Positions 1 through 34,036 of a DNA stretch of 35,230 nt are shown piece by piece. The position numbers and the translations under genes were made by a program. The DNA comes from a virus. Below the pieces are notes generated by a model. That model had not been told where the DNA came from. It did not search any database and was given only the letters and a program-made list of their open reading frames with translations. The stretch lies in IMG/VR virus record IMGVR_UViG_3300010354_000270, positions 1 to 35,230 of that record; one strand, written 5' to 3'. Every line of letters begins with the position of its first letter. Positions within the stretch are counted from its first letter, which is position 1.

Positions 1-425
1 AAGTCAAGCTAGCGTCGGCAGAAATTCTTGCTGATTGCTCAACGCTGTCAGCAGATGCTCTTGCACTTTCTTCGGCAGAAACACGAGAAGTCAAGCTGCC
101 ATCAGCAGAAATTCTTGCTGATTGCTCAGCGCTGTCAGCAGAAACACGAGCACTTTCTTCAGCGGAAACACGAGAGGTCAAGCTGCCATCAGCAGAAATT
201 CTTGCTGATTGCTCAACGCTGTCAGCGGATACTCTTGCGCTTGCTTCAGCAGATACTGCAGATGCTCTTGCACTTTCTTCAGCAGATACGCGAGAGGTCA
301 AGCTAGCATCGCCTGAAATTCTTAGGCTTTCTTCGTTAGAAATTGCTGAGTTTGCACCAGATGAACCGCCTTCGAGCGATGAAAGACGAGAAGTTAAGCT
401 AGCGTCGCCCGAAATTCTTGCTGAT
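1..425. repeat. 87-nt tandem repeats inside fibre gene
   Basis: Near-identical copies start at 1, 88 and 175, a period of 87 nt (29 codons), with shorter degenerate copies near 290 and 390. The repeats stay in frame with the minus-strand fibre gene. The low divergence of the first three copies suggests recent expansion. The array continues past the window edge. Confidence 0.85.
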
Positions 426-637
426 TCTTCGGCGTTAAGATTAGTTTTATAAGCGATTTCGCTTACCGCACTTGTTTCAGCATTATAAGCATAGACTTTT
501 CCTTCGGCATCAACCTTAATAAGGTCTACAGCCACACCACTTGAAACGGCCTTTAATGCCTCTCCATCCAACAATTCAATTTTACTGCCGTCAATCGCTT
601 TTGCATCTAAGTGTTTCTTTTTAATACGTAAGGTCAT
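1..637 (-). CDS. repeat-rich phage tail fibre-like protein (3' end outside window)
   Basis: The reading frame is open from the ATG at 637 to the window edge (212 codons), so the C-terminus is missing. The ATG follows a good Shine-Dalgarno site (AAAGGAG, about 6 nt upstream). Residues 1-75 form a non-repetitive head (starts MTLRIKKKHLDAKAIDGSK), and the rest is an Ala/Ser/Glu/Arg-rich array of 29-residue units of the type SAEESARASADSVEQSAR. Such units usually form long trimeric coiled coils or shafts in phage fibres. It is the last visible gene of a run of adhesin genes and has its own promoter and an upstream terminator, so it looks like a separate transcription unit. Fibre identity is inferred from composition and neighbours. 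Confidence 0.75.
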   Translation of the reverse strand, partial: MTLRIKKKHLDAKAIDGSKIELLDGEALKAVSSGVAVDLIKVDAEGKVYAYNAETSAVSEIAYKTNLNAEESARISGDASLTSRLSSLEGGSSGANSAISNEESLRISGDASLTSRVSAEESARASAVSAEASARVSADSVEQSARISADGSLTSRVSAEESARVSADSAEQSARISADGSLTSRVSAEESARASADSVEQSARISADASLT

Positions 638-5440: not shown

Positions 5441-8368
5441 TTATTTTTCCTTTAATGTCTCAATTTCTGTTTTTAATACTCTAAGTTCGGCACGAGCATC
5501 ATTAAGTTCAGCTTTAAGTTCTTGAATACATTTCATTAAAGCGTATTGTAAATCTGTTTGATATATTGTTTTAAGAGGCTCTTCGTCTTTAGATAATTCT
5601 CCAAAACCATCTGTGCTGTTTACCAGTTCGGGAGCAACTTTTTCTACATCTTGAGCAATAACGCCAAGATTTAAATCCATATCATCGCCTTGGTCTTTGT
5701 ATCTAAAAGTTTTTACAGGTATTGCGCAAATTTTGTTGAGATAATTGCCAGCAAGATTAATATCTGTTTTTACACGCTCATCTGAAAGACCAACATTGTT
5801 TGCACTGTAATTACCGATACCTCCGTCATTTTTTACATAAAACCTATCACCGTTATAAGTAGCGTTTACGTTATACAATCGAAACGCTATAGGCCAATTT
5901 AAACTTTGGTTGTTTACTACAGAAACAACCGCATTAGAAAGAAAAGGTTTAATTTTTATACCCACGCCACTTGTTTCGGATGAGTCTGTTGTTCCGGACA
6001 ATACAAATCCACTTGAGTTTATTGTAAGATCTGCTCCTAAGTTAGTCGTAAAAAGATGACTCGTGGCATCGTAAGTCATTGAGGTGTAGGTGCTATTTGT
6101 TGGATTTACTGAACTTAATACAGAACCACCAGCATTTTGAGTGTTAATTAAAAAACGAGAGGCACCTTTAATATCAAAGTTATTAGTTATTGTACTAGAG
6201 GAATAGTCTCCAATTCCAAAATAACCATTACTATTAAATCTTGCACATTCAGAGCCGGTTCCGATACCGAATACAAGCTGTTGTCCAGAAGCGATTGTTT
6301 GTAATTTTGTTACACCCGTTCCATCACGCGCATAAGAAAATTCTGCAACTGGAGTGCCTTGCTCAGCTAACTGAAAGCCAACTTTATTGGTTCCACTAAC
6401 CGTTGCACTATTGATATTGGCAGAAATATACTCTCCGGAATTACCGTTCATAGTGATTTTACCAACAGCCGTAGACCCAGTAACAATTAAGTTCCCGCTA
6501 GCGTCGATGCGCATGCGTTCTGTGGTACCAGACCCGCCTACGTTAAATGTCATGTAATCGTTACCGTAAACTGCTGCGGTAATAGATGACTTTAGGTTAC
6601 CAGCATTAGCAAAACCAATTCCTGCAACATTTGTACCTGCACCACCTGCGCCGTTATCAGTGTAAACCGCGTACGTTGTGCCGCTTACTAAGTCTTTTTT
6701 TGCATGTAAGGTAGTACCAGGACTCGCCGTCCCAATCCCGACATTCCCTGCATCCGAGACAAACACATTTGTCGTACTGCCAGCAGCATTTTTTACCGAG
6801 ATACCGCTGGTGTCTTTTGCTTTTATTGAACTAAAAAAAACATTTTCTGAATCAACGGACAAGGGTAAGCTTGTTCCAACCGCAGGAGCGTTTATTGCAT
6901 AATTAATATATGCATCAATAAACCCAGCTAAAGAAGGTAAAGCGACTCGCACATTTGCTATGCCGCCGCTTACCAGCACATCCATAGCAAAACCAGCGGG
7001 CGGAGTATCTCCCACTGTCTGAGGTACGGCAATATTATAATCTGTTCCTAAACCATTTTTAGCAAATTGAGTTTGAAAATAAAATTTATAATCAGTCGTT
7101 GCATTAATATAAACCCATCCAGCTAACTCACCGGCCTCATAGGCTGTAATATTTTGTATTGGAGTTATTGCATTATTGGCTAAAGCGATTTGCGTTCTTG
7201 CGTTTACACTGCCAACAACGACACCGCGCTGGTTATAGAACATAATATCAACAGAAGTTGCGCCAATATTATGAACAATACCAATTGGTTTAGAAACATA
7301 ACCAATTGTGGTTACATCGGAGACAGTTAGTTTTCCGTCCGTTGTTGATAAAAATACTACTGAACCGCGAGCAGGTAAAACAGCTTCAATAAAAGCGTTA
7401 GCTGTAACTCCTGAAATTTCTCCAGATAAAGAAACTTCGGCTAAATTGTCATTTAAACGACGACCAATTAAGCCAGCAACTTCTGCTGTATTTGCTGCCA
7501 TTGCATTTGCTTTTTTCCAAGCAGTTGTATCAACGTATAAGGGCGTGCCGATTGGATAATCAGCTAAAATACCAATACCTGTTTGTGTCACTTGTTCAGT
7601 GGCTGCTCCACCGCTGCCTGTGCCGCCAACAATGCGCCATCTGCTATTTGAGTCGCTATCTGTCATATAGCTCAGCAATATGGATGCGTCGATTGGGATA
7701 GAAACTGGCCCACTAGTTCCTGTAATAATCCTAGTACTTGCCGTTGGGGTAGCGTCCTCATTAATCACTTGAAGGGCGGAGTTTGTTTTATTGACGAGCA
7801 TTAAAAGCTCGCCGACTTTGCCTGCTGTAATAGAACGCAATTCTGTCGATGCGCCCGTTAATTCAACGAGGCTTGATTTTTTCGGCTGAGTTGATAAATT
7901 TAAATCAGAAGTAGATAATGCAACTGAATTTGTATCGACAACCAAAGAAGAAATAACTTCTGAAGAAGAGCTGGAAAGCCCCCAACGAGAAGCGCTATTG
8001 TCGTAAGCAAAACAAATTGTTCCGCCGGGAGACAACGTATGCTCTTTACTAGTACCAATTAAAATACGATTATCAGCAGATGCTAAAGCATTTTCTTCTT
8101 TAAAAATAATATCAACAGAGCTGTCATTTTTTAAAACAATCATTTTGCCATTTCTGGCAGGTTCCGCTAATAAAGGAGCTAAAATGCCAGCAATTACTGT
8201 TTCACCGGGGGAGCCGCTTCCGACAGTTAAACGAATGAAACTTTTTTCACTTACATCTAAAGCAATCGAGGTAGAACCTTCAGCTAATGCAATTGATGAG
8301 CCTTGCTGCACTACCAGCTCATCTGTACGAATATGCTCAAATGAGGGTTTTTTTCCGATATTGGACAT
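5441..8368 (-). CDS. long tail fibre with S74 intramolecular chaperone
   Basis: 975 residues. Residues 1-500 are repeated beta-rich attachment or shaft domains; about 540-860 contain modules such as GNVGIGTASPGTTLHAKKDL, common in phage side fibres. The C-terminus is a peptidase-S74/autochaperone domain: SDERVKTDINL begins it with the Ser expected at self-cleavage, followed by GVIAQDVEKVAPELV and a coiled coil of about 50 residues ending ETLKEK. In such fibres the chaperone trimerises and folds the shaft, then cuts itself off at the Ser. It is the first gene of the minus-strand adhesin operon that continues through 4551 and 3532. Confidence 0.92.
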   Translation of the reverse strand: MSNIGKKPSFEHIRTDELVVQQGSSIALAEGSTSIALDVSEKSFIRLTVGSGSPGETVIAGILAPLLAEPARNGKMIVLKNDSSVDIIFKEENALASADNRILIGTSKEHTLSPGGTICFAYDNSASRWGLSSSSSEVISSLVVDTNSVALSTSDLNLSTQPKKSSLVELTGASTELRSITAGKVGELLMLVNKTNSALQVINEDATPTASTRIITGTSGPVSIPIDASILLSYMTDSDSNSRWRIVGGTGSGGAATEQVTQTGIGILADYPIGTPLYVDTTAWKKANAMAANTAEVAGLIGRRLNDNLAEVSLSGEISGVTANAFIEAVLPARGSVVFLSTTDGKLTVSDVTTIGYVSKPIGIVHNIGATSVDIMFYNQRGVVVGSVNARTQIALANNAITPIQNITAYEAGELAGWVYINATTDYKFYFQTQFAKNGLGTDYNIAVPQTVGDTPPAGFAMDVLVSGGIANVRVALPSLAGFIDAYINYAINAPAVGTSLPLSVDSENVFFSSIKAKDTSGISVKNAAGSTTNVFVSDAGNVGIGTASPGTTLHAKKDLVSGTTYAVYTDNGAGGAGTNVAGIGFANAGNLKSSITAAVYGNDYMTFNVGGSGTTERMRIDASGNLIVTGSTAVGKITMNGNSGEYISANINSATVSGTNKVGFQLAEQGTPVAEFSYARDGTGVTKLQTIASGQQLVFGIGTGSECARFNSNGYFGIGDYSSSTITNNFDIKGASRFLINTQNAGGSVLSSVNPTNSTYTSMTYDATSHLFTTNLGADLTINSSGFVLSGTTDSSETSGVGIKIKPFLSNAVVSVVNNQSLNWPIAFRLYNVNATYNGDRFYVKNDGGIGNYSANNVGLSDERVKTDINLAGNYLNKICAIPVKTFRYKDQGDDMDLNLGVIAQDVEKVAPELVNSTDGFGELSKDEEPLKTIYQTDLQYALMKCIQELKAELNDARAELRVLKTEIETLKEK

Positions 8369-9941: not shown

Positions 9942-10901
9942 TTAATACCCCAACACATATCCAAACACCAAAGGAGCTACGATAGTGGCGTCCGACTCAA
10001 TCATAAACTTGGGGGTTTCTTTTGATAATTTGCCCCAAGTAATCTTTTCGTTTGGAACAGCTCCCGAATAACTTCCATATGATGTAGTCGAGTCACCAAT
10101 CTGGCAAAAATAACTCCATAGTGGAATACTTGTGTCTTCTAAGTCTTGCTGGAGCATCGGCACTACGCAGATAGGAAAATCTCCAGCAATACCACCACCT
10201 ATTTGCAAGAATCCCACAGTAGAATCTTTGGTTGTCTCTTTATACCAACAAGCTAAATCCACCATGTATTCAATGCCGTTACGCATAACACGAGTTCCTA
10301 ATTCTCCAGTCATGCAGTAAGAAGCAAAGATGTTTCCTAGAGTAGAATCTTCCCACCCCGGTACGTAAATGGGTAAGTTTTTTTCACAGGCAGCTACAAG
10401 CCAACTGTCTTTAGGGTCTATTTGAGGTTTTATAATACCGTTCTTAATAACTTTATAAAGAAACTCGTGAGGGAAGTAAGACCTCCCGTCACGGCTAGCT
10501 CTTTTCCACTCAGCCAACACATGGGCCTCTATAAGGCGAATAGCTTCTGCTTCTGGGATGCAAGTGTCAGTGACACGGTTAAGGTGTTGTTTGAGTAGTT
10601 TGTTTTCTTCTTGAGGAGTTAGGTCACGGTAGTTGGGAATCACTTTGTAATGATTATGAGCAACGAGATTAAATAAATCTTCTTCAAGATTTGCGCCCGT
10701 GCATGAAATAGCGTGGACTTTGTCTTGGCGAATCATTTCAGCCAAGATAATACCTAACTCAGCGGTAGACATAGCTCCTGCAAGAGTCACCATCATCTTA
10801 TTACCGCCCTCAACGTGTTGTTTATAGGCTTTGGCTGCTGCCAAAACCTCACGAGAGTTGAAGTGTTTGTAATGTTTTTCAAGAAATTCAGAAAGTTGCA
10901 T
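9942..10901 (-). CDS. deoxyhypusine synthase-family enzyme
   Basis: 319 residues, clearly of the deoxyhypusine/homospermidine-synthase fold. Eukaryotic and archaeal members use NAD+ to move the aminobutyl group of spermidine to a lysine of eIF5A; bacterial DHS-like members act on other amines or are uncharacterised. Visible motifs are SCTGANLEEDL (66-76, NAD site), VPGWEDSTLG (180-189), IGGGIAGDFP (234-243) and TWGKL (288-292). The last holds Lys291 at the place of the catalytic lysine of human DHS, so the enzyme looks intact. The segment GDSTTSYGSYSGAVPNEKIT is like bacterial DHS-like proteins, pointing to a bacterial source. It ends an operon of tiny membrane proteins, its ATG beginning 2 nt after the previous stop. 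Substrate uncertain: polyamine chemistry is likely. Confidence 0.93.
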   Translation of the reverse strand: MQLSEFLEKHYKHFNSREVLAAAKAYKQHVEGGNKMMVTLAGAMSTAELGIILAEMIRQDKVHAISCTGANLEEDLFNLVAHNHYKVIPNYRDLTPQEENKLLKQHLNRVTDTCIPEAEAIRLIEAHVLAEWKRASRDGRSYFPHEFLYKVIKNGIIKPQIDPKDSWLVAACEKNLPIYVPGWEDSTLGNIFASYCMTGELGTRVMRNGIEYMVDLACWYKETTKDSTVGFLQIGGGIAGDFPICVVPMLQQDLEDTSIPLWSYFCQIGDSTTSYGSYSGAVPNEKITWGKLSKETPKFMIESDATIVAPLVFGYVLGY

Positions 10902-12066: not shown

Positions 12067-12801
12067 TTAAAATCCTAAAAACTTAAGAGAGTCTAGTTGA
12101 GCTGAATTACACTTTTTCTTTAATTCAGGCAGTCTTCCTGCCTCAAATACTTTTTGAACATAAAATTTAGCCAAAGCTACTAAGTTGGCCGCTTCAGCCC
12201 CGTCCGTTGTTTTAGCTAACCCTTGTAGTTTTGTAAGAGAAGCAAAAAACATAGATTCAACTTCCCCAGCATCTTTATTCCAAATCGCATCTTCGTCCAT
12301 ACCAGATTCGCGCATATCTTTTAAAAGCTCTTCTTGCAAATTTTGCCACCCCTTAACCTCTGACATACGATAATTCATTGCAATAACCATTTGATCTAAT
12401 TCGTATTTATGAAATTGAATTTCAATTTCTAATTCACGTCTTTTAATTTCATCTCGTCTAGAATCGCCCAATTCTTCCATATCAAGCATCAATTTTTCAA
12501 CTTGTAGTTTTTTAAGTTCAAAATCTTTTGCAAGATAAAAACTTTGTTCAAGTTGTACTTTTTGTTCTAGAATTGATTGATGAAATTTAGAATGAAGGGT
12601 TGGATGATAATCATCTGAAATAATAGATCTTTTTTGCGTATCTGTTCTCCAAATATGAACTTTTTCAAAAACTTGAGCAAAGTGTTCTTTATTTGCAACT
12701 AAAAATTGTTGGTCCTCTTTTTTTATAATCGACATTGGTTTAATGGTATCAAGAATGTTGGTAACCGCAGTATCCGCATTTTTTGCAATAATATTTGACA
12801 T
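12067..12801 (-). CDS. hypothetical alpha-helical protein, 244 aa
   Basis: Almost entirely helical with a long charged coiled coil (about residues 85-155, many Glu/Lys/Leu heptads). No signal peptide or membrane segment. It is a single-gene unit with its own strong promoter (TTGACA-N17-TATATT), GGAGG ribosome site and terminator, so it is probably made in quantity. Position after the propeller fibre suggests a virion or assembly protein, for example a fibre-attachment or scaffold-type protein. No family recognised. Confidence 0.65.
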   Translation of the reverse strand: MSNIIAKNADTAVTNILDTIKPMSIIKKEDQQFLVANKEHFAQVFEKVHIWRTDTQKRSIISDDYHPTLHSKFHQSILEQKVQLEQSFYLAKDFELKKLQVEKLMLDMEELGDSRRDEIKRRELEIEIQFHKYELDQMVIAMNYRMSEVKGWQNLQEELLKDMRESGMDEDAIWNKDAGEVESMFFASLTKLQGLAKTTDGAEAANLVALAKFYVQKVFEAGRLPELKKKCNSAQLDSLKFLGF

Positions 12802-12876: not shown

Positions 12877-15800
12877 TTAATTAATTTGTATATTATCTAT
12901 TGATATTTCAGTATATTTTTCTGTTCTTCTTAATTTACTTATTCCATTATATCCACCGAACGCAAGTGCTCCATTTTGTTTTCCAGCTCCTGCCAATTGA
13001 CTTCCGGCTGTTAAATTTCCTGACACTGTCCAAATATTTCCATTAAATTTTTCCGTTACCCCAAGATAGCTAGAACCTGAATATCCACCAAAAGCCAATG
13101 CGGCATTTTGTGTTCCTGCTCCAAAAAGTTCTGTTTTTGCTGCATTCAGGTTGTTAGCCAAAGACCACGCTCCGCCATTAAATTTTTCTGTTGTAGCCAC
13201 TATAACAGAAGCAGGGGAATTAAGACCTCCAAATACTAAAGCAGAGTTTTGTGTTCCTGCTCCAGCCAGTCCGTATCTTTTTGTACTTAAAGAAGCGCTG
13301 GCCGCCCAGCTTGTTCCATCAAATTTTTCAGATATTTCAATATTAGACCCCACGGCTAATGCAGCATTCTGTGTTCCAACGCCAGTAAAATTATCTCTAC
13401 CGTATGTTAAGATTCCTAAAGGGAGGACTGACCACGCGCTTCCGTTAAAATTTTCTGTTACATCTTGAATAGAGCTGTTGTCGGTACCTCCAAATGCTAA
13501 TGCTGCGCCCTGTGTTCCCACTCCCGCCAAACCTGATTTTTCTGTACTTAAATCACCTGTTAAAGACCATGAGTTTCCATTAAATTTTTCAGTTGTTTTA
13601 ATTTTATTAGCGGTATTGTTTTCTCCACCAAAAGCCAGGGCAGCATCTTGTGTACCAGCTCCTGCTAATTTATTTTTTTCTGCATTTAAATCGTTGGCCA
13701 AAGACCACACACCATTTCCAAGAGTTTTTGGAATAAATTCAATATTATAATTAAATTTTTCTGTTATTGAAAGTTGGTTAAATGCGTATCCACCCAAAGC
13801 CAAAGCAGCATTCTGTGTTCCTGCTCCTGCTAAACTATATCTGGCTGCACTTAAACTTCCTGCTGTAGACCATGTACTACCATTAAATTTTTCTGTTACT
13901 GCAGTTGCTATACCTGTAGTTCCGCCAAAAGCTAATGCAGCATTCTGTGTTCCTACTCCTGCCAATCCCTCTTTACCTACACTTAAATTCCCTGTTGTAG
14001 ACCACGCACTTCCATTAAACTTTTCTGTTACTGCAGTTACTGAACCTGTACTTCCACCAAAAGCTAATGCAGCATTCTGTGTTCCTGCTCCTGCTAAACC
14101 AAATTTAGCTGCACTTAAATTCCCCGTTGTAGACCATGCGCTTCCATTAAATTTTTCTGTTACTGAAGTTGCTATACCTGTAGTTCCACCAAAAGCCAAT
14201 GCAGCATTCTGTGTTCCTGCTCCTGCCAATCCCTCTTTACCTACACTTAAATTCCATGCACCATTTGTAGACCATGTACTTCCATTAAACTTTTCTGTTA
14301 CTGCAGTTCTTGAACCTGTATATCCACCAAAAGCTAATGCAGCGTTCTGTATACCAGCTCCTGCTAAACCATTTTTAGCCGCACTTAAATTCCCTGTTGT
14401 AGACCATGCGCTTCCATTAAATTTTTCTGTTACCGCAGTTCTTGAGCCCGTAAAACCGCCAAAAGCCAATGCAGCATTCTGTGTTCCTGCTCCTGCTAAT
14501 CCATTTTTAGCTGTATTTAAATAAGCAACCGTAGACCATTGATTTGATTGATAATTTTCTTTTTCTAGTTCTGTAATCCATAATGATTCTTGATTAGATA
14601 GTCCACCATTTATATCAAAATTTACATCTAATTGCAGTATTCCTGCTTCTGAGCCTAAATTCATTACTATGGGAGTGTTTGAGCTAGAAATATTTATACT
14701 ATTTAAAGTGCCTTTAAATATACCAAAAAACCCACATTTTAATTGACCGTTAAACTTTTCTGTTGCTGAAAGATAATTACTGCCATTTGTGGTTCCACCA
14801 AAAGCCAATACAGCATTCTGTGTTCCTGCTCCTGCTAAATTGTATTTAGCTGCACTTAACCCCCCTGTTGTAATCCACACACTTCCATTAAACTTTTCTG
14901 TTACTGCAGTTGCTGGTGGCACGGTTCCACCAAATACCAGTCCAGCATTTTGTGTACCAGCGCCTGCTGAATATTGTTTAGCTGCACTTAAATTCCCTGT
15001 CGTAGACCATGTACTACCATTAAATTTTTCTGTTACTGCGGTTGATATACCTGTAGTTCCGCCAAAAGCTAGTGCAGCATTCTGTGTTCCTGCCCCTACT
15101 AAAAGATATTTAGCTGCACTTAAATTCCCTGTCGTAGACCATGTACTACCATTAAATTTTTCTGTTACTGCAGTTGCTGCACTACCTGTATATCCACCAA
15201 AAGCCAAAGCAGCACCTTGTGTTCCTGCCCCTGCTAAACCAAATTTAGCTGCACTTAAATTCCATGCGCCATTTGTAGACCATGCACTTCCATTAAATTT
15301 TTCTGTTACTGCAGTTGCTGCACTACCTGTATATCCACCAAAAGCCAATGCAGCATTCTGTGTTCCTGCTCCTGCTAAATTTTGTTTAGCTGCACTTAAA
15401 TTCCATGCGCCATTTGCAGACCATGTACTACCATTAAATTTTTCTGTTACTGCAGTTACTGAACCCGTATTTCCACCAAAAGCTAATGCAGCATTCTGTG
15501 TTCCTGCCCCTGCTAATCCACTTTTAGCTGTATTAAGAGGACTCGTTCCGCTCCAAAAATCAAAAATTAATATATTATCCGGAATACTAAATGTTGTTGG
15601 GCCATTTAATACCGTTGATTCAAAATGATAATCTTCAATTGCATTAATTACTGGAGTGTATGGATCAGCACCAGTTCTAATTAAAAATTCTAAACCATCG
15701 GATGCTTTTAGATATAGCTTTCCATCTGTTTTTGCATACAATCTCACATAATTAGGATCAGGAACAGCAGCAGCAGTTATTCCGTTTAAATCTTCATAAT

Positions 15801-18513
15801 TGTTTATTTTTAAATTTGTAGCAGTTTTGTCAATAATTTGTTGATTACCAGCAGAAGTAATTACTTCTGATTCGCTACCAATAGCTCCAAGTTTAAATTT
15901 GCTTATAATACTAGAATCATAAAGAATATCAGCAATTGGAGAACCATCTCCTTCGATTGTTAATCCAGAATCATTTGCTGCAGCGGCAAGACCACCCTTA
16001 TTAACAGTAATATTTTTATCTTCAACATCAAGGGTTGCTGTATTTAATGTTGTGGTAGCTCCTTGAACAGCAAGATTTCCTAAAATTGTAATTGTATCGG
16101 CACTTGTGCCTAAATTTAAAGAATTAGATGTTGCTAATATATCAGTAGCTTGAATTTTTCTTGCAGAAAAATCCCCATTACTATCTCTTGCAACAATGGT
16201 ATCTCCTACGTTATATTCTGTAGCGGTTGTTGCGCTGTTTAAAACTTTACCAACAGTGCTAATAGTTGCCAACTTTGAATCAGAAATTGCCGCAGTAGCG
16301 CTTATATCGGCATCTACAATTAATGATGTTGATAGATTACCCAAAGCATCATTATGTACAACTCCAGCAGAGCTAAAACTGCTAATAATTGCATCATTTA
16401 TTGTAATACTTCCAGTTGTTTCAATATTTTGACTACCAAAATCAGGGTCAATTTTTGTCCCTGCAATAGCTGCTGATGCGTCTACGTCTGCGTTTGTTAA
16501 TAAACCAGAATTTAATACCCCTAGTGTTGTTTTTACAACGCCCGTTGTTGATAAATTGTGTAATGTAATTTCACCTGTATCTTTAATAGTAACAAGATTA
16601 GTCCCCGTATCACTAATAAACTTAAACTGAGAGGCTGTTCCAGCTTGTCCTCGCAACAAAACTCCGTCTGTAGGAGAGGCGGATACGGTAGCTCCATCGA
16701 TTGGCTCTACGCCAGTAACTTTTATAGATTTTGTTGTTGCGTTTCCAGTTGTTTCAATATTTTGACTACCAAAATCAGGGTCAATTTTTGTCCCTGCAAT
16801 AGCTGCAGAACCATCAACATCGGCATTAACAATTAATGAAGATGTAAAGTTTCCGTCAACATCGGAATGAACGACTCCTGTTCCTAAATCCGTTGTTTTA
16901 ATATTGGCAAATTCTACTGAAGAGGTTTTTTGCAAATCTTGGTCAAATGTAAGATTAGTATTAAATTTTACAGTTACATCATTTAACGATTCGCTAGTTA
17001 ATTGAAGGGTTTTTGCAGCGGATTGTGTTTTTAATTGAATAATTCCAGCATGTGCAGGTGCTTTTGCCTCCCAACTCATGCGGTCGCTAGCGACATGGAT
17101 ATAACCATTAAGCAACAATCTAGCCCCTAATGCAGTTGCTCCCGATTCATCAGCGGAAGAGTTTGTTCTTTTTGGATTAACTGCATCAATATATGCAGTA
17201 TTTACAGTTAATACTTTAAATGTTCCGTTATTATCACTGGACGTAAAGCCTGTAATTCTAAGATATTCTCCAGCAATTAAACCATCAACACCGTTTCCTA
17301 AAACATCAACGGTATATCTAATTATATTACCAGACTGCCAAGTAGCCGCTGTTAAATCTATTTGAGCACCGGCATATTCTTCCTGAACATACAAACCTGA
17401 ATCAGGCGAATCTTGACCCGAAGCATTAAAGTTAACAACAATATTTTTATCTTCGCTAACGTAATCAATTGGAGTTGTATAAGTAGCTCCAGTAATATTT
17501 ACAGTGGAGTTTGGTCCACCAAGATTAATTGTGTTAAAACCACTGCCTGTGCCAATAGCAATTGTTTTATTATCGTTTCCAGATAAAATACTAATATCAT
17601 TTGTGTTTGATTCAATTGTGTCAACAAGGACAGAGCCAGTTGTTTCAATATTTTGACTACCAAAATCAGGGTCAATTTTTGTCCCTGCAATAGCTGCGGA
17701 ACCATCAACATCGGCATTAACAATTTTAGAAGCGCTTAGTAAGCCACTGGCATCTGCATGCACTAGCCCAGGTGCAGAAGCACCCATAGCCAAAGAAGGA
17801 GCTAAAATTTGATTTGAACTAACAGGATTTAATAAAACATCGGCACCGACTTCGTTTTGCAAAGCAAAACTATTAATAGAGCCTGCGTCACCTCTAACGA
17901 CCACTCCCTTATTAGTATCTAAAAAAACCGAAGCGGCTGTTGGAACTCCGCCAGCGGTTAAAGTTAATAGCGGTGTTTTAGATTTAATCGTTAAAGTTAC
18001 TTCATCAAAAGTTGGATTTCCTGTAATTGAAAGGTTTTGAGATAATTTAATTTTTTGAGAATTAGAATCTAACTCTAATCCATTTAATGTCTGTGGACTC
18101 CATGCACCTGATTCAGAACCGGTTCTTAAAATTAATCTTGTGTGTTGATCAGCTAACAATGAAATAATCTCTGGCATAGCTAAAACTGCAGCATCAAAAT
18201 CCGTTACATTAGAGGCAGTTAAGATAAGTTCAGCCTCATCAACTTCTGCTTCATAAGTAACTTCATCTCCAATTTGATTTAAATTCCATTTAATAGTTCT
18301 TGTGTCGGCAAAAATTAAAAACGGCGGAATCGGAGTTGTTACCCAATCCGTTATTAATGAGGTGCCCTGTGCCACATAAAACTTTTTATTAATAATATCA
18401 TAAATGCCTTGTCCAACAAATTTTGGAATAGTATTTGGAGGTTGCGAAGACAATGTTACTCTAAGCTCATGAATATCATCGCCAACAAGGTCTTTGTGTA
18501 AAATTTCAGCCAT
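12877..18513 (-). CDS. giant virion protein with three kelch-type beta-propellers
   Basis: 1878 residues. Residues 1-980 are beta-rich attachment and shaft modules with three near-identical NADVDGSAAIAGTKIDPDFG segments. Residues about 985-1870 hold 18 kelch-like units with core AGAGTQNAALAFGG...TEKFNGSxWSTTGNLSAAK. Units 6, 12 and 18 lack the Trp strand, and that strand appears instead just before units 1, 7 and 13 (FWSGTSPLNTAK, QWSTVAYLNTAK, VWSLANDLNAEK). This is the pattern of three closed six-bladed propellers. A 65-residue insert separates the first two. Similar GTQNAALAFGG repeats are familiar from tail proteins of aquatic phages. It likely binds host glycans as a long fibre. Ribosome site AAGGAG before ATG. 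Confidence 0.85.
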   Translation of the reverse strand: MAEILHKDLVGDDIHELRVTLSSQPPNTIPKFVGQGIYDIINKKFYVAQGTSLITDWVTTPIPPFLIFADTRTIKWNLNQIGDEVTYEAEVDEAELILTASNVTDFDAAVLAMPEIISLLADQHTRLILRTGSESGAWSPQTLNGLELDSNSQKIKLSQNLSITGNPTFDEVTLTIKSKTPLLTLTAGGVPTAASVFLDTNKGVVVRGDAGSINSFALQNEVGADVLLNPVSSNQILAPSLAMGASAPGLVHADASGLLSASKIVNADVDGSAAIAGTKIDPDFGSQNIETTGSVLVDTIESNTNDISILSGNDNKTIAIGTGSGFNTINLGGPNSTVNITGATYTTPIDYVSEDKNIVVNFNASGQDSPDSGLYVQEEYAGAQIDLTAATWQSGNIIRYTVDVLGNGVDGLIAGEYLRITGFTSSDNNGTFKVLTVNTAYIDAVNPKRTNSSADESGATALGARLLLNGYIHVASDRMSWEAKAPAHAGIIQLKTQSAAKTLQLTSESLNDVTVKFNTNLTFDQDLQKTSSVEFANIKTTDLGTGVVHSDVDGNFTSSLIVNADVDGSAAIAGTKIDPDFGSQNIETTGNATTKSIKVTGVEPIDGATVSASPTDGVLLRGQAGTASQFKFISDTGTNLVTIKDTGEITLHNLSTTGVVKTTLGVLNSGLLTNADVDASAAIAGTKIDPDFGSQNIETTGSITINDAIISSFSSAGVVHNDALGNLSTSLIVDADISATAAISDSKLATISTVGKVLNSATTATEYNVGDTIVARDSNGDFSARKIQATDILATSNSLNLGTSADTITILGNLAVQGATTTLNTATLDVEDKNITVNKGGLAAAANDSGLTIEGDGSPIADILYDSSIISKFKLGAIGSESEVITSAGNQQIIDKTATNLKINNYEDLNGITAAAVPDPNYVRLYAKTDGKLYLKASDGLEFLIRTGADPYTPVINAIEDYHFESTVLNGPTTFSIPDNILIFDFWSGTSPLNTAKSGLAGAGTQNAALAFGGNTGSVTAVTEKFNGSTWSANGAWNLSAAKQNLAGAGTQNAALAFGGYTGSAATAVTEKFNGSAWSTNGAWNLSAAKFGLAGAGTQGAALAFGGYTGSAATAVTEKFNGSTWSTTGNLSAAKYLLVGAGTQNAALAFGGTTGISTAVTEKFNGSTWSTTGNLSAAKQYSAGAGTQNAGLVFGGTVPPATAVTEKFNGSVWITTGGLSAAKYNLAGAGTQNAVLAFGGTTNGSNYLSATEKFNGQLKCGFFGIFKGTLNSINISSSNTPIVMNLGSEAGILQLDVNFDINGGLSNQESLWITELEKENYQSNQWSTVAYLNTAKNGLAGAGTQNAALAFGGFTGSRTAVTEKFNGSAWSTTGNLSAAKNGLAGAGIQNAALAFGGYTGSRTAVTEKFNGSTWSTNGAWNLSVGKEGLAGAGTQNAALAFGGTTGIATSVTEKFNGSAWSTTGNLSAAKFGLAGAGTQNAALAFGGSTGSVTAVTEKFNGSAWSTTGNLSVGKEGLAGVGTQNAALAFGGTTGIATAVTEKFNGSTWSTAGSLSAARYSLAGAGTQNAALALGGYAFNQLSITEKFNYNIEFIPKTLGNGVWSLANDLNAEKNKLAGAGTQDAALAFGGENNTANKIKTTEKFNGNSWSLTGDLSTEKSGLAGVGTQGAALAFGGTDNSSIQDVTENFNGSAWSVLPLGILTYGRDNFTGVGTQNAALAVGSNIEISEKFDGTSWAASASLSTKRYGLAGAGTQNSALVFGGLNSPASVIVATTEKFNGGAWSLANNLNAAKTELFGAGTQNAALAFGGYSGSSYLGVTEKFNGNIWTVSGNLTAGSQLAGAGKQNGALAFGGYNGISKLRRTEKYTEISIDNIQIN
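12905..15560. repeat. 18 kelch repeats in three sets of six (about 135-150 nt each)
   Basis: In-frame DNA repeats within the giant fibre gene. Set 1 is about 14745-15560, set 2 about 13745-14541, set 3 about 12905-13715. Sets 1 and 2 are very alike at DNA level; set 3 is more diverged. A non-repeat stretch of about 200 nt lies between sets 1 and 2. Confidence 0.85.
16412..16472. repeat. 61-nt perfect direct repeat, copy A
   Basis: Identical to copies at 16745 and 17636. Encodes the AAIAGTKIDPDFGSQNIETT segment of the giant fibre protein on the minus strand. Confidence 0.9.
16745..16805. repeat. 61-nt perfect direct repeat, copy B
   Basis: Same sequence as copies A and C; similarity with copy C runs about 28 nt further with one mismatch. 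Confidence 0.9.
17636..17696. repeat. 61-nt perfect direct repeat, copy C
   Basis: Same sequence as copies A and B, about 900 nt from copy B, inside the N-terminal half of the giant fibre gene. Confidence 0.9.
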
Positions 18514-31122: not shown

Positions 31123-33096
31123 TTAAAAACTAAATTTAATTAATCTTTTTTTTGGTTCCGAAGTAGAGGTAACTTCTCCACCGTCAATAAGATGCCCCAT
31201 TCCAGCCTTTTGATAAGCTTCTATAGTTTTTTCAGCTAGTTGAGATGGTATTAAAGGGACGCCCATGTCTTTATATGTCTCATACATGGCTGCTTCCATT
31301 TCTTTCTTATAGACTTCTTCGCGGGTCATGGGGGCCGCTTCTATCTTCTTAGACGCAATTCTAACTTCCACGGCTGTTCTGTATTTGTCTAGTCCATATC
31401 TACATGAGTCGATAAAATGCGTGTTATCGTCATCTTCATACCTACTTGTGTCGAACTCTCCGCGTGGGTCTTTCTTGTGCATCCACCCAATCATAGACTC
31501 AATTGCGTACTCCATTCCTGAGTCATTTTCTGCCTTACAGATAATCATATCGGCTTCCTGTCTCTCTACGTTCCATAAGAGAGACTGAATCTGGACTACG
31601 CCCGTTTCAATATGGGTTGGTTTCTTGTTCTTAACGGCAAATCCAAACGGCTGAAAGTAATGAGCTGAGCCAGCGTCTGCCATATCAGGGCAAATAATGT
31701 CTGGCGGAAACATCAAACATTCTTTTTCTCTGACAGTTTGTGCCCACTGAGAGTTAGGATAGCCAGTGGCTGCCCTAACATGAAGAGCGACGGCTCTGAC
31801 TTGAGATTGAGAATACAAAATAACCGACACAACTGCCGAATCTCTTACACCCCAGTCAATGCCAAAACTAACTTCCCACTTATTGGTCACAGCCCAAGCA
31901 TAAATATCTTGCTTGGTGCATTTTCTATTAGCCTTCCACGGTTGGCCTGTTACCCAAAGCCAAGTCTCTTCTATATTCCTGACATGTAACTGCCTATTGA
32001 ACGTAGGAAATACAAGGCCGCCGGTTTCAGGACGCCAATTTAGAATTTGAGCAATAATCTTATTGGCTTCTTTAGTTTCTTTGATGAAGTTACCAGTGAA
32101 GGCAATTGTTCTTAGAGTCTTGGATTTGCTCGTTTGCTTGGGAGCACGAGCCTGACACGCAATAAAGGCAGGGCATGTCACACAACCCTCATATGCGAGT
32201 ATCTCTTTGTATTTAACTTTGACAGCATCTGGCTCTTCTTGAAAAGTTTCTTCATCCCATCTGACCTTTAGGTTTTCTGTATGGAGATATGCTTTGAGTC
32301 GTTTTTCTCCGTGTGTTTCAGGTAGACACTTTCTCATAAAGTCTACTGCTGACCACTTGTCCAAACGAATATCTTTATCGTCGCCCTTTTCGGCCTCTTC
32401 CATCAATTCTTGAAGCGGACCTTGAGAAGTCTTACGAGAGGACAGCGAGATAGTGATAGGCTCAAACCCATGCTCATCTTGAGTGGGGTCAGCAACCATG
32501 GCAACTTCTGAGAGAATCTCTCTAGGTGTCAAGTCACACTCGTCTCGAATGATAATAGACGCACGCGAAGAGTTGGCTCCTTCAAGGGTTGCTGCAGTCA
32601 CGAATACGTCGGCATCGTCTTTTGATGTATATGAGTTTGCAGGAAGATTAGACAGACGAAGTTCGCCGGCTCGGTTGGTTTCAAAATGATCTTGAAGTTC
32701 TGGGATTCTTAAGAACTTTTTCAAATATTTGATTGCTTTATAAGACTGGTCTTTGATTGCGGCAATCTGCAAACATGACCTTCTAAAGTGAACCATCGCA
32801 AGCCAATGTATAACTGCAGACATAACCGTTTTCATTGAGTTGCGAGAGGCTGCGACTACAACGCGGTGGGCACCTTTGTTGGTCTTCATGGTGCAGTAAA
32901 TTTGCCAAACAGACTCCATAGGGTTTGATGTAGACATTTCATCTACTGTACAGTCTGGCAAGTCTAACTTCAGGAAAGTCTTAATGAATTGTTGAAGTTC
33001 TTCTTTTGTTTCACAAATAGTAAACAAGAGACGCTTGCGCATCTCTATCTTTTGTCGCTGCTCTTCAGTTAGTTCAGGTTCACGCTTTTTCGCCAT
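31123..33096 (-). CDS. terminase large subunit
   Basis: 657 residues. ATPase domain: Walker A-like SRNSMKT (84-90) and Walker B IIIRDE (181-186). Nuclease domain: GIDWGVRD (412-419, Asp414), ICPDMAD (Asp471/474) and HFIDSCRYGLD (Asp563). It packages DNA through the portal and cuts the concatemer. Between the two domains lies CVTCPAFIAC (305-314), a Cys cluster that could bind metal. The ATG lies inside the end of the GlpX gene (17-nt overlap), so it may depend on GlpX translation. Confidence 0.95.
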   Translation of the reverse strand: MAKKREPELTEEQRQKIEMRKRLLFTICETKEELQQFIKTFLKLDLPDCTVDEMSTSNPMESVWQIYCTMKTNKGAHRVVVAASRNSMKTVMSAVIHWLAMVHFRRSCLQIAAIKDQSYKAIKYLKKFLRIPELQDHFETNRAGELRLSNLPANSYTSKDDADVFVTAATLEGANSSRASIIIRDECDLTPREILSEVAMVADPTQDEHGFEPITISLSSRKTSQGPLQELMEEAEKGDDKDIRLDKWSAVDFMRKCLPETHGEKRLKAYLHTENLKVRWDEETFQEEPDAVKVKYKEILAYEGCVTCPAFIACQARAPKQTSKSKTLRTIAFTGNFIKETKEANKIIAQILNWRPETGGLVFPTFNRQLHVRNIEETWLWVTGQPWKANRKCTKQDIYAWAVTNKWEVSFGIDWGVRDSAVVSVILYSQSQVRAVALHVRAATGYPNSQWAQTVREKECLMFPPDIICPDMADAGSAHYFQPFGFAVKNKKPTHIETGVVQIQSLLWNVERQEADMIICKAENDSGMEYAIESMIGWMHKKDPRGEFDTSRYEDDDNTHFIDSCRYGLDKYRTAVEVRIASKKIEAAPMTREEVYKKEMEAAMYETYKDMGVPLIPSQLAEKTIEAYQKAGMGHLIDGGEVTSTSEPKKRLIKFSF

Positions 33097-34036
33097 GGCG
33101 TGTTTCTATGTATCTAGCAAATTTGTTTGACAAAACAATTGAATGAGTTGTGTTGTTAGTCACACCCTTTAGCAGAAAACTGTCAGTCACTCCAGTAGCA
33201 ATAAAGGCAACGTGCCCTTTTGCCAGCTCATTCAATGTATAAATCTTATTAATATCTTTAATACCCATATTCTTAGTTCTCTCTAGTAGCTCTGGAGTGT
33301 CGATAACTAAACGCGCCTGCATATCTCCATTGAGACACTTAATGGCAGCAGCAGCAATCACTCCTTCTGGTGCTCCGCCTATACCCATAAGCATATCAAC
33401 TTTGCTGTTCTTTAGGCAAGTAACAATAGCTTCTAGAATATCACCATCCTCAAATAAATGTATTTTAGCACCCAACTCATCAATTTCTTTGATTAAATTG
33501 TGATGTCTTGGTCTATCTAAGACAGCCACGGTAATATCTTCGATTTTGCGACTCGTGCATAAAGCAAAACTTTTAATGTTTTCCGTTGCAGAGCGGTCAA
33601 GACTAATAGACCCTCTGCCTTTGGGACCAACAACAATCTTCTCCATGTAGCAATCAGGAGCATGCAAAAAACATCCTTTGTCGGCGATTGCTATAACAGA
33701 CATTGCATTAGGTTTTCCGCTGGCAGTTAACTTAGTGCCTTCGAGAGGGTCCACCGCAATATCAGCTTCATGGTTACGAGGATGACCTGCACCAACTTGT
33801 TCTCCAATATAAAGCATAGGAGCTTCGTCTAGCTCCCCTTCGCCAATGACAATAGTTCCCAGAATTTCAGCATTATTAAGAGCGCGTCTCATGGCATCAA
33901 CCGCCGCTTTATCTGCTTCATAGGGGTTATTTTTTCCAATCCACGGAGCGCAAGCGACCGCTGCTGCTTCGGCTGCCCACAGATAATTCATAAGATAAGA
34001 AGCGTCTTCTCCAGTCGCAAGTAGTTCCATGTTCAT
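33080..34036 (-). CDS. glpX: class II fructose-1,6-bisphosphatase
   Basis: 318 residues, near the family's full length (about 320-340). The enzyme converts fructose 1,6-bisphosphate to fructose 6-phosphate and phosphate; cyanobacterial members also act on sedoheptulose bisphosphate. Metal and active-site motifs are complete: GEGELDEAPMLYIGE (65-79), DPLEGT (96-101), DKGCFLHAPDCYMEK and GIGGAPEGVIAAAAIKCLNG. The protein looks functional and host-derived. AGGAG lies 8 nt before ATG; 5 nt separate it from the preceding small gene. The 3' end overlaps the terminase start by 17 nt, so it is expressed with packaging genes. It would push carbon toward the pentose-phosphate pathway and sugar nucleotides. 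Confidence 0.96.
   Translation of the reverse strand: MNMELLATGEDASYLMNYLWAAEAAAVACAPWIGKNNPYEADKAAVDAMRRALNNAEILGTIVIGEGELDEAPMLYIGEQVGAGHPRNHEADIAVDPLEGTKLTASGKPNAMSVIAIADKGCFLHAPDCYMEKIVVGPKGRGSISLDRSATENIKSFALCTSRKIEDITVAVLDRPRHHNLIKEIDELGAKIHLFEDGDILEAIVTCLKNSKVDMLMGIGGAPEGVIAAAAIKCLNGDMQARLVIDTPELLERTKNMGIKDINKIYTLNELAKGHVAFIATGVTDSFLLKGVTNNTTHSIVLSNKFARYIETRHGEKA

Follow-up and report, generated by a model that had tools for sequence, protein, structure and literature searches.

A phage tail fibre predicted to end in three six-bladed kelch propellers closed by N-terminal tryptophan strands

Beta-propellers are already known from phages, both as single kelch domains in virions and as parts of receptor-binding proteins. 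The propellers of phi11 Gp45 and phiKZ gp131C have five and seven blades and are not built of kelch repeats, and Gp45 is a trimer that carries one propeller per chain. In Gp45, the receptor-binding protein of phi11, an N-terminal strand closes the last blade of the propeller (PMC4901313). The kelch protein CBB_552 has been found in virions (PMC5259590), and the isolate phage P-HM2 also has a kelch protein (PMC3037559). Many environmental phages carry kelch proteins without an assigned function, PHROG 27227 being one example. Here, we analysed a 35,230-nt stretch of viral DNA (IMG/VR record IMGVR_UViG_3300010354_000270; hereafter, the window) that encodes a large tail fibre (Table 1). We consider it probable that the C-terminal 900 residues of this fibre form a row of three six-bladed kelch propellers, each a closed ring, which together would act as a multivalent receptor-binding tip.

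Table 1. Features of the fibre gene and its downstream neighbour in the window.
Feature	Position	Strand	Basis
Tail fibre gene, 1878 aa (residues 1-985 stalk, 986-1869 kelch tip)	12877..18513	-	ORF open throughout
Stalk, residues 1-985	15559..18513	-	Alignment to a relative's fibre
Kelch propeller 1, units 1-6, closing strand W987	14746..15558	-	Unit pattern and model
68-aa linker, propellers 1/2	14542..14745	-	Similar-length linkers in related loci L001, L002, L004, L006, L007
Kelch propeller 2, units 7-12, closing strand W1326	13750..14541	-	Unit pattern and alignment
13-aa linker, propellers 2/3	13711..13749	-	Set spans
Kelch propeller 3, units 13-18, closing strand W1603	12907..13710	-	Unit pattern, alignment, structure-sequence matches
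244-aa protein, helical by sequence, conserved kelch-gene neighbour	12067..12801	-	Directly downstream of fibre gene

The last 900 residues of the fibre comprise three sets of six kelch units (18 in all), spaced mostly 44-47 residues apart, with G-A/V-G-x-Q anchors that run from residue 1002 to 1842. The original prediction held that this array is interrupted, and the unit pattern bears it out: a Trp-bearing strand follows units 1-5, 7-11 and 13-17 but not units 6, 12 and 18, and directly precedes units 1, 7 and 13, with the closing tryptophans W987, W1326 and W1603 lying where they had been placed. For three missing-Trp units placed at random, the probability of falling exactly at 6, 12 and 18 is 1/816. 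Measured from the Trp strand to the end of the last unit, the sets cover residues 986-1256 (813 nt), 1325-1588 (792 nt) and 1602-1869 (804 nt), in line with the ~815, 800 and 815 nt given earlier, and the gaps that separate them are unequal (68 aa for sets 1/2 versus 13 aa for sets 2/3). Pfam Kelch_1 matches the region, the solved sequences closest to it are designed and human six-bladed kelch domains, and set 3 matches six-bladed kelch structures by sequence. In one alignment, sets 2 and 3 are 75% and 52% identical to set 1 and share its Trp pattern. Because the longest exact nucleotide repeat within the array measures 63 bases, short-read collapse during assembly is unlikely to account for the copy number.

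We modeled set 1 (residues 975-1275) with AlphaFold2 from a 113-row alignment of six-unit sets, an input with which the model could not itself choose another set size. The result was a six-bladed kelch propeller (pLDDT 94.6, pTM 0.90) with 24 strands, four in each of blades 1-5 and, in blade 6, three plus an N-terminal strand (model residues 12-16, fibre residues 986-990) that carries W987. The model supports the reading that this N-terminal Trp strand would be the fourth strand of blade 6 and the 24th overall, a pairing read from the strand count. The sets have six units with GG and Trp motifs and four strands each, and both the Trp column and the set 1 model place the closing strand at the opposite end of the set. 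Set 1 also matches solved six-bladed kelch domains: Foldseek returned six-bladed kelch folds (E 1.7e-17), the best solved match was NS1-BP (VIA-align Z 33.9, rmsd 2.4 over 259 residues), and among viral predicted structures (BFVD) the matches included several phage kelch proteins, two of them from phage CBB. For sets 2 and 3, propeller folds are supported by alignment to set 1 and the shared Trp pattern and, for set 3, also by the structure-sequence matches. In each propeller, the N-terminal Trp strand would complete the sixth blade and thereby close the ring.

The same period recurs among relatives, which we took from viral contigs and whose units we counted with a profile built from the units of this fibre. 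When set borders were cut wherever the Trp was missing, 40 of 41 sets (21 proteins) had six units. Units per protein peaked at 6 (54 proteins), 12 (43), 18 (7) and 24 (2) among 143 kelch proteins, a count that adds loci gathered via another gene and includes near-duplicate contigs. Many of the proteins with 4 or 5 units start or end at contig edges or contain units that the profile probably misses. Across 113 aligned sets, preselected for six units so that the alignment tests the Trp pattern and not the unit count, the closing Trp is present in 98% and the Trp after blades 1-5 in 97-100%, and a Trp after unit 6 occurs in 1 of 109. Comparative unit counts put set borders at multiples of six throughout the kelch family, with one to four propeller domains per protein in related phages. 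Two exceptions stand out, namely an inserted set of five units, complete with a closing Trp, within an 878-aa protein of L020 (7943-10579), either a five-bladed ring or an assembly collapse, and a truncated unit in L006; unless both are assembly faults, six units per set is not an absolute rule. The arrays may have grown through duplication of single blades as well as of entire six-blade sets.

These data also bear on whether the 18 units could instead be arranged as a single unbroken solenoid or as rings of a different size. An AlphaFold2 model of the whole array, built with 12 relatives, gave no confident fold (pLDDT 29.9) and hence did not display separate rings, which leaves such an arrangement some room; the closure Trp pattern, the set 1 model and the multiples of six in which units occur across the family all speak against it, and we regard this reading as scarcely credible. 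Velcro-type closure every six units, as originally proposed, is supported by the set 1 model and by the unit counts and Trp pattern of the relatives, and the borders at units 6/7 and 12/13 held with no solenoid appearing, as judged by structure for set 1.

The kelch gene sits among tail and fibre genes. The window contains portal and terminase genes (the terminase recognised via kinship to an annotated one), a fibre with an S74 domain and collar-like genes, and in relatives, a baseplate J gene lies near the kelch gene in L009 and a tail sheath gene in L008. A related 110-kb phage record, whose terminase is 88% identical to that of the window, has a fibre that aligns to residues 1-854 of the window fibre at 61% identity, does not align beyond residue 854, and has a C1q domain at its end (E 1.5e-8). 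Since this relative shares the first ~850 fibre residues and has C1q at its end, the alignment indicates, for this one relative, that the kelch part is an exchangeable tip on a kept stalk. This retention of the stalk with exchange of the head is the strongest evidence for placing the propellers at the fibre tip, although the C1q and kelch tips need not do the same job. The stalk itself (residues 1-985) had no match in NCBIfam.

Several other genes in the window are worth recording. A GlpX-type fructose-1,6-bisphosphatase gene (33080-34036, minus strand; Pfam E 2e-119) adjoins the large terminase gene, an odd place for a metabolic gene. A 319-aa protein (9942-10901, minus strand) is related to deoxyhypusine synthase and homospermidine synthase (NCBIfam E 8.4e-34, under the curated cut-off). 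At 2-637 (minus strand), ESARxSADxS is repeated in a coiled-coil-like array that contains a tandem repeat of 87 bases; several long proteins in L013 of the sister phage are related to this array.

Variation within the propellers is concentrated in particular loops. In sets 1 and 2, the DA and BC loops had a pN/pS of 1.45 (bootstrap 1.12-1.96) and the framework 0.24, ratios taken among paralogous units that loop misalignment, which could inflate them, and gene conversion can distort. Family-wide, the beta2-beta3 (BC) loop and the end of the beta4-beta1 (DA) loop showed the highest entropy and beta3-beta4 the lowest. In Keap1, the face that binds Nrf2 is formed by the DA and BC loops. At the sequence level, such loop variation over a conserved framework fits a diversified binding face. 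The tip would then bind the host surface through this variable DA/BC face, and several contacts per chain would add up to avidity. We infer three binding heads per chain, with which the tip position, the head swap and the variable loops on one face are all consistent.

Alternatively, the propellers could be spacers or decoration that provide length, stiffness or loose sticking, with the specific head located elsewhere, for example in the S74 fibre (5441-8368), a second large fibre in the window with a chaperone-of-endosialidase end; the kelch proteins of CBB, likewise, are virion proteins of unproven role (PMC5259590). We consider this unlikely, as the kelch tip lies at the fibre end and is swapped for a C1q head in the relative, and a spacer would not need one-face loops that vary with pN/pS above 1. 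A second alternative is an enzymatic one, in which the propellers would cleave or oxidise sugars on the host surface, like galactose-oxidase-type kelch proteins or phage endosialidases. The propeller fold is common to sugar-active enzymes and the BFVD matches include phage proteins named galactose oxidase, but all three sets lack Cys and His, which rules out the copper/Cys-Tyr centre of galactose oxidase, and we found its Cys-Tyr and His copper site in none of them. Moreover, the window's kelch protein matched no catalytic family and its variability resides in loops, not in a conserved site, which makes an enzymatic role highly improbable. A receptor-binding tip remains the reading that we prefer.

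This tip may have a dedicated partner in the 244-aa protein encoded downstream, which had no PHROG, Pfam or NCBIfam match. Its relatives adjoin a kelch gene in five of the loci collected first. We then considered 80 loci gathered with this protein as the sole query, which form 34 clusters at 75% identity: a kelch gene is found in the flank of 23 of the 34. It is the next gene upstream in 14 of 30 and the second one upstream in 9 of 26, with other offsets at 0-12%. In the closest relative, the neighbours of the 244-aa protein are other adhesin-like genes, including those of C1q and glycine-rich proteins, and the protein may therefore serve the tip slot instead of kelch as such. From its position, it is likely a fibre partner, chaperone or connector, and it would help the tip to fold or attach. 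The family counts over 80 relatives in viruses, and their genes often directly follow those for kelch proteins or other adhesins. In L003, the pair of kelch and 244-aa genes is followed by a 2OG-Fe(II) oxygenase gene and then two similar-sized genes (15872-17668), and a row of ~195-220-aa genes like this one recurs in other loci.

More broadly, these loci might represent a widespread class of phage adhesins with one to four six-bladed kelch propellers, one hypervariable face, and exchangeable tips with a dedicated helical partner, a generalisation that we offer tentatively. If true, blade and set duplication combined with loop diversification would yield a multivalent, evolvable host-binding surface. 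Should strings of propellers indeed serve as receptor-binding tips, the family typified by PHROG 27227 would gain a testable function and a candidate partner protein, and nature would offer a scaffold whose frame is kept while one face varies. Searching GenBank phages by tblastn with the kelch region, two relatives' kelch regions and the 244-aa protein gave no match, for which low-complexity masking of the repeats is a possible cause; the collection did respond to tblastn, since the terminase found one distant phage there. A genome scan with the window protein gave one weak bacterial match.

How, then, does this fibre compare with described systems? Two to four six-bladed kelch propellers with Trp closure as an exchangeable fibre tip appear to be new, given that we found no description, in the open-access literature searched, of a tail fibre with six-blade kelch sets in tandem. 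The kelch domains of Keap1, KLHL12 and NS1-BP and the designed SAKe6 have the six-bladed fold in common with set 1 (Z about 32-34), but are single propellers, cellular or designed, with 16-24% identity to the window. Like phi11 Gp45 and phiKZ gp131C, (putative) phage receptor-binding proteins with propellers, the window fibre is proposed to bind its host through this type of fold. Kelch propeller proteins, as in the window fibre, also occur in the jumbo phages CBB (CBB_550, CBB_552 and CBB_554), PhiPA3, Noxifer and PS119XW; the CBB proteins matched are 280-285 aa long, the size of one propeller, whereas the window fibre carries tandem sets at its tip. PHROG 27227 (phage proteins of unknown function, profile length 617) matches the window's kelch region (E 2.5e-161) and a marine six-unit set (E 1.9e-48); its profile is about two sets long, whereas the window fibre has three sets fused to a 985-aa stalk.
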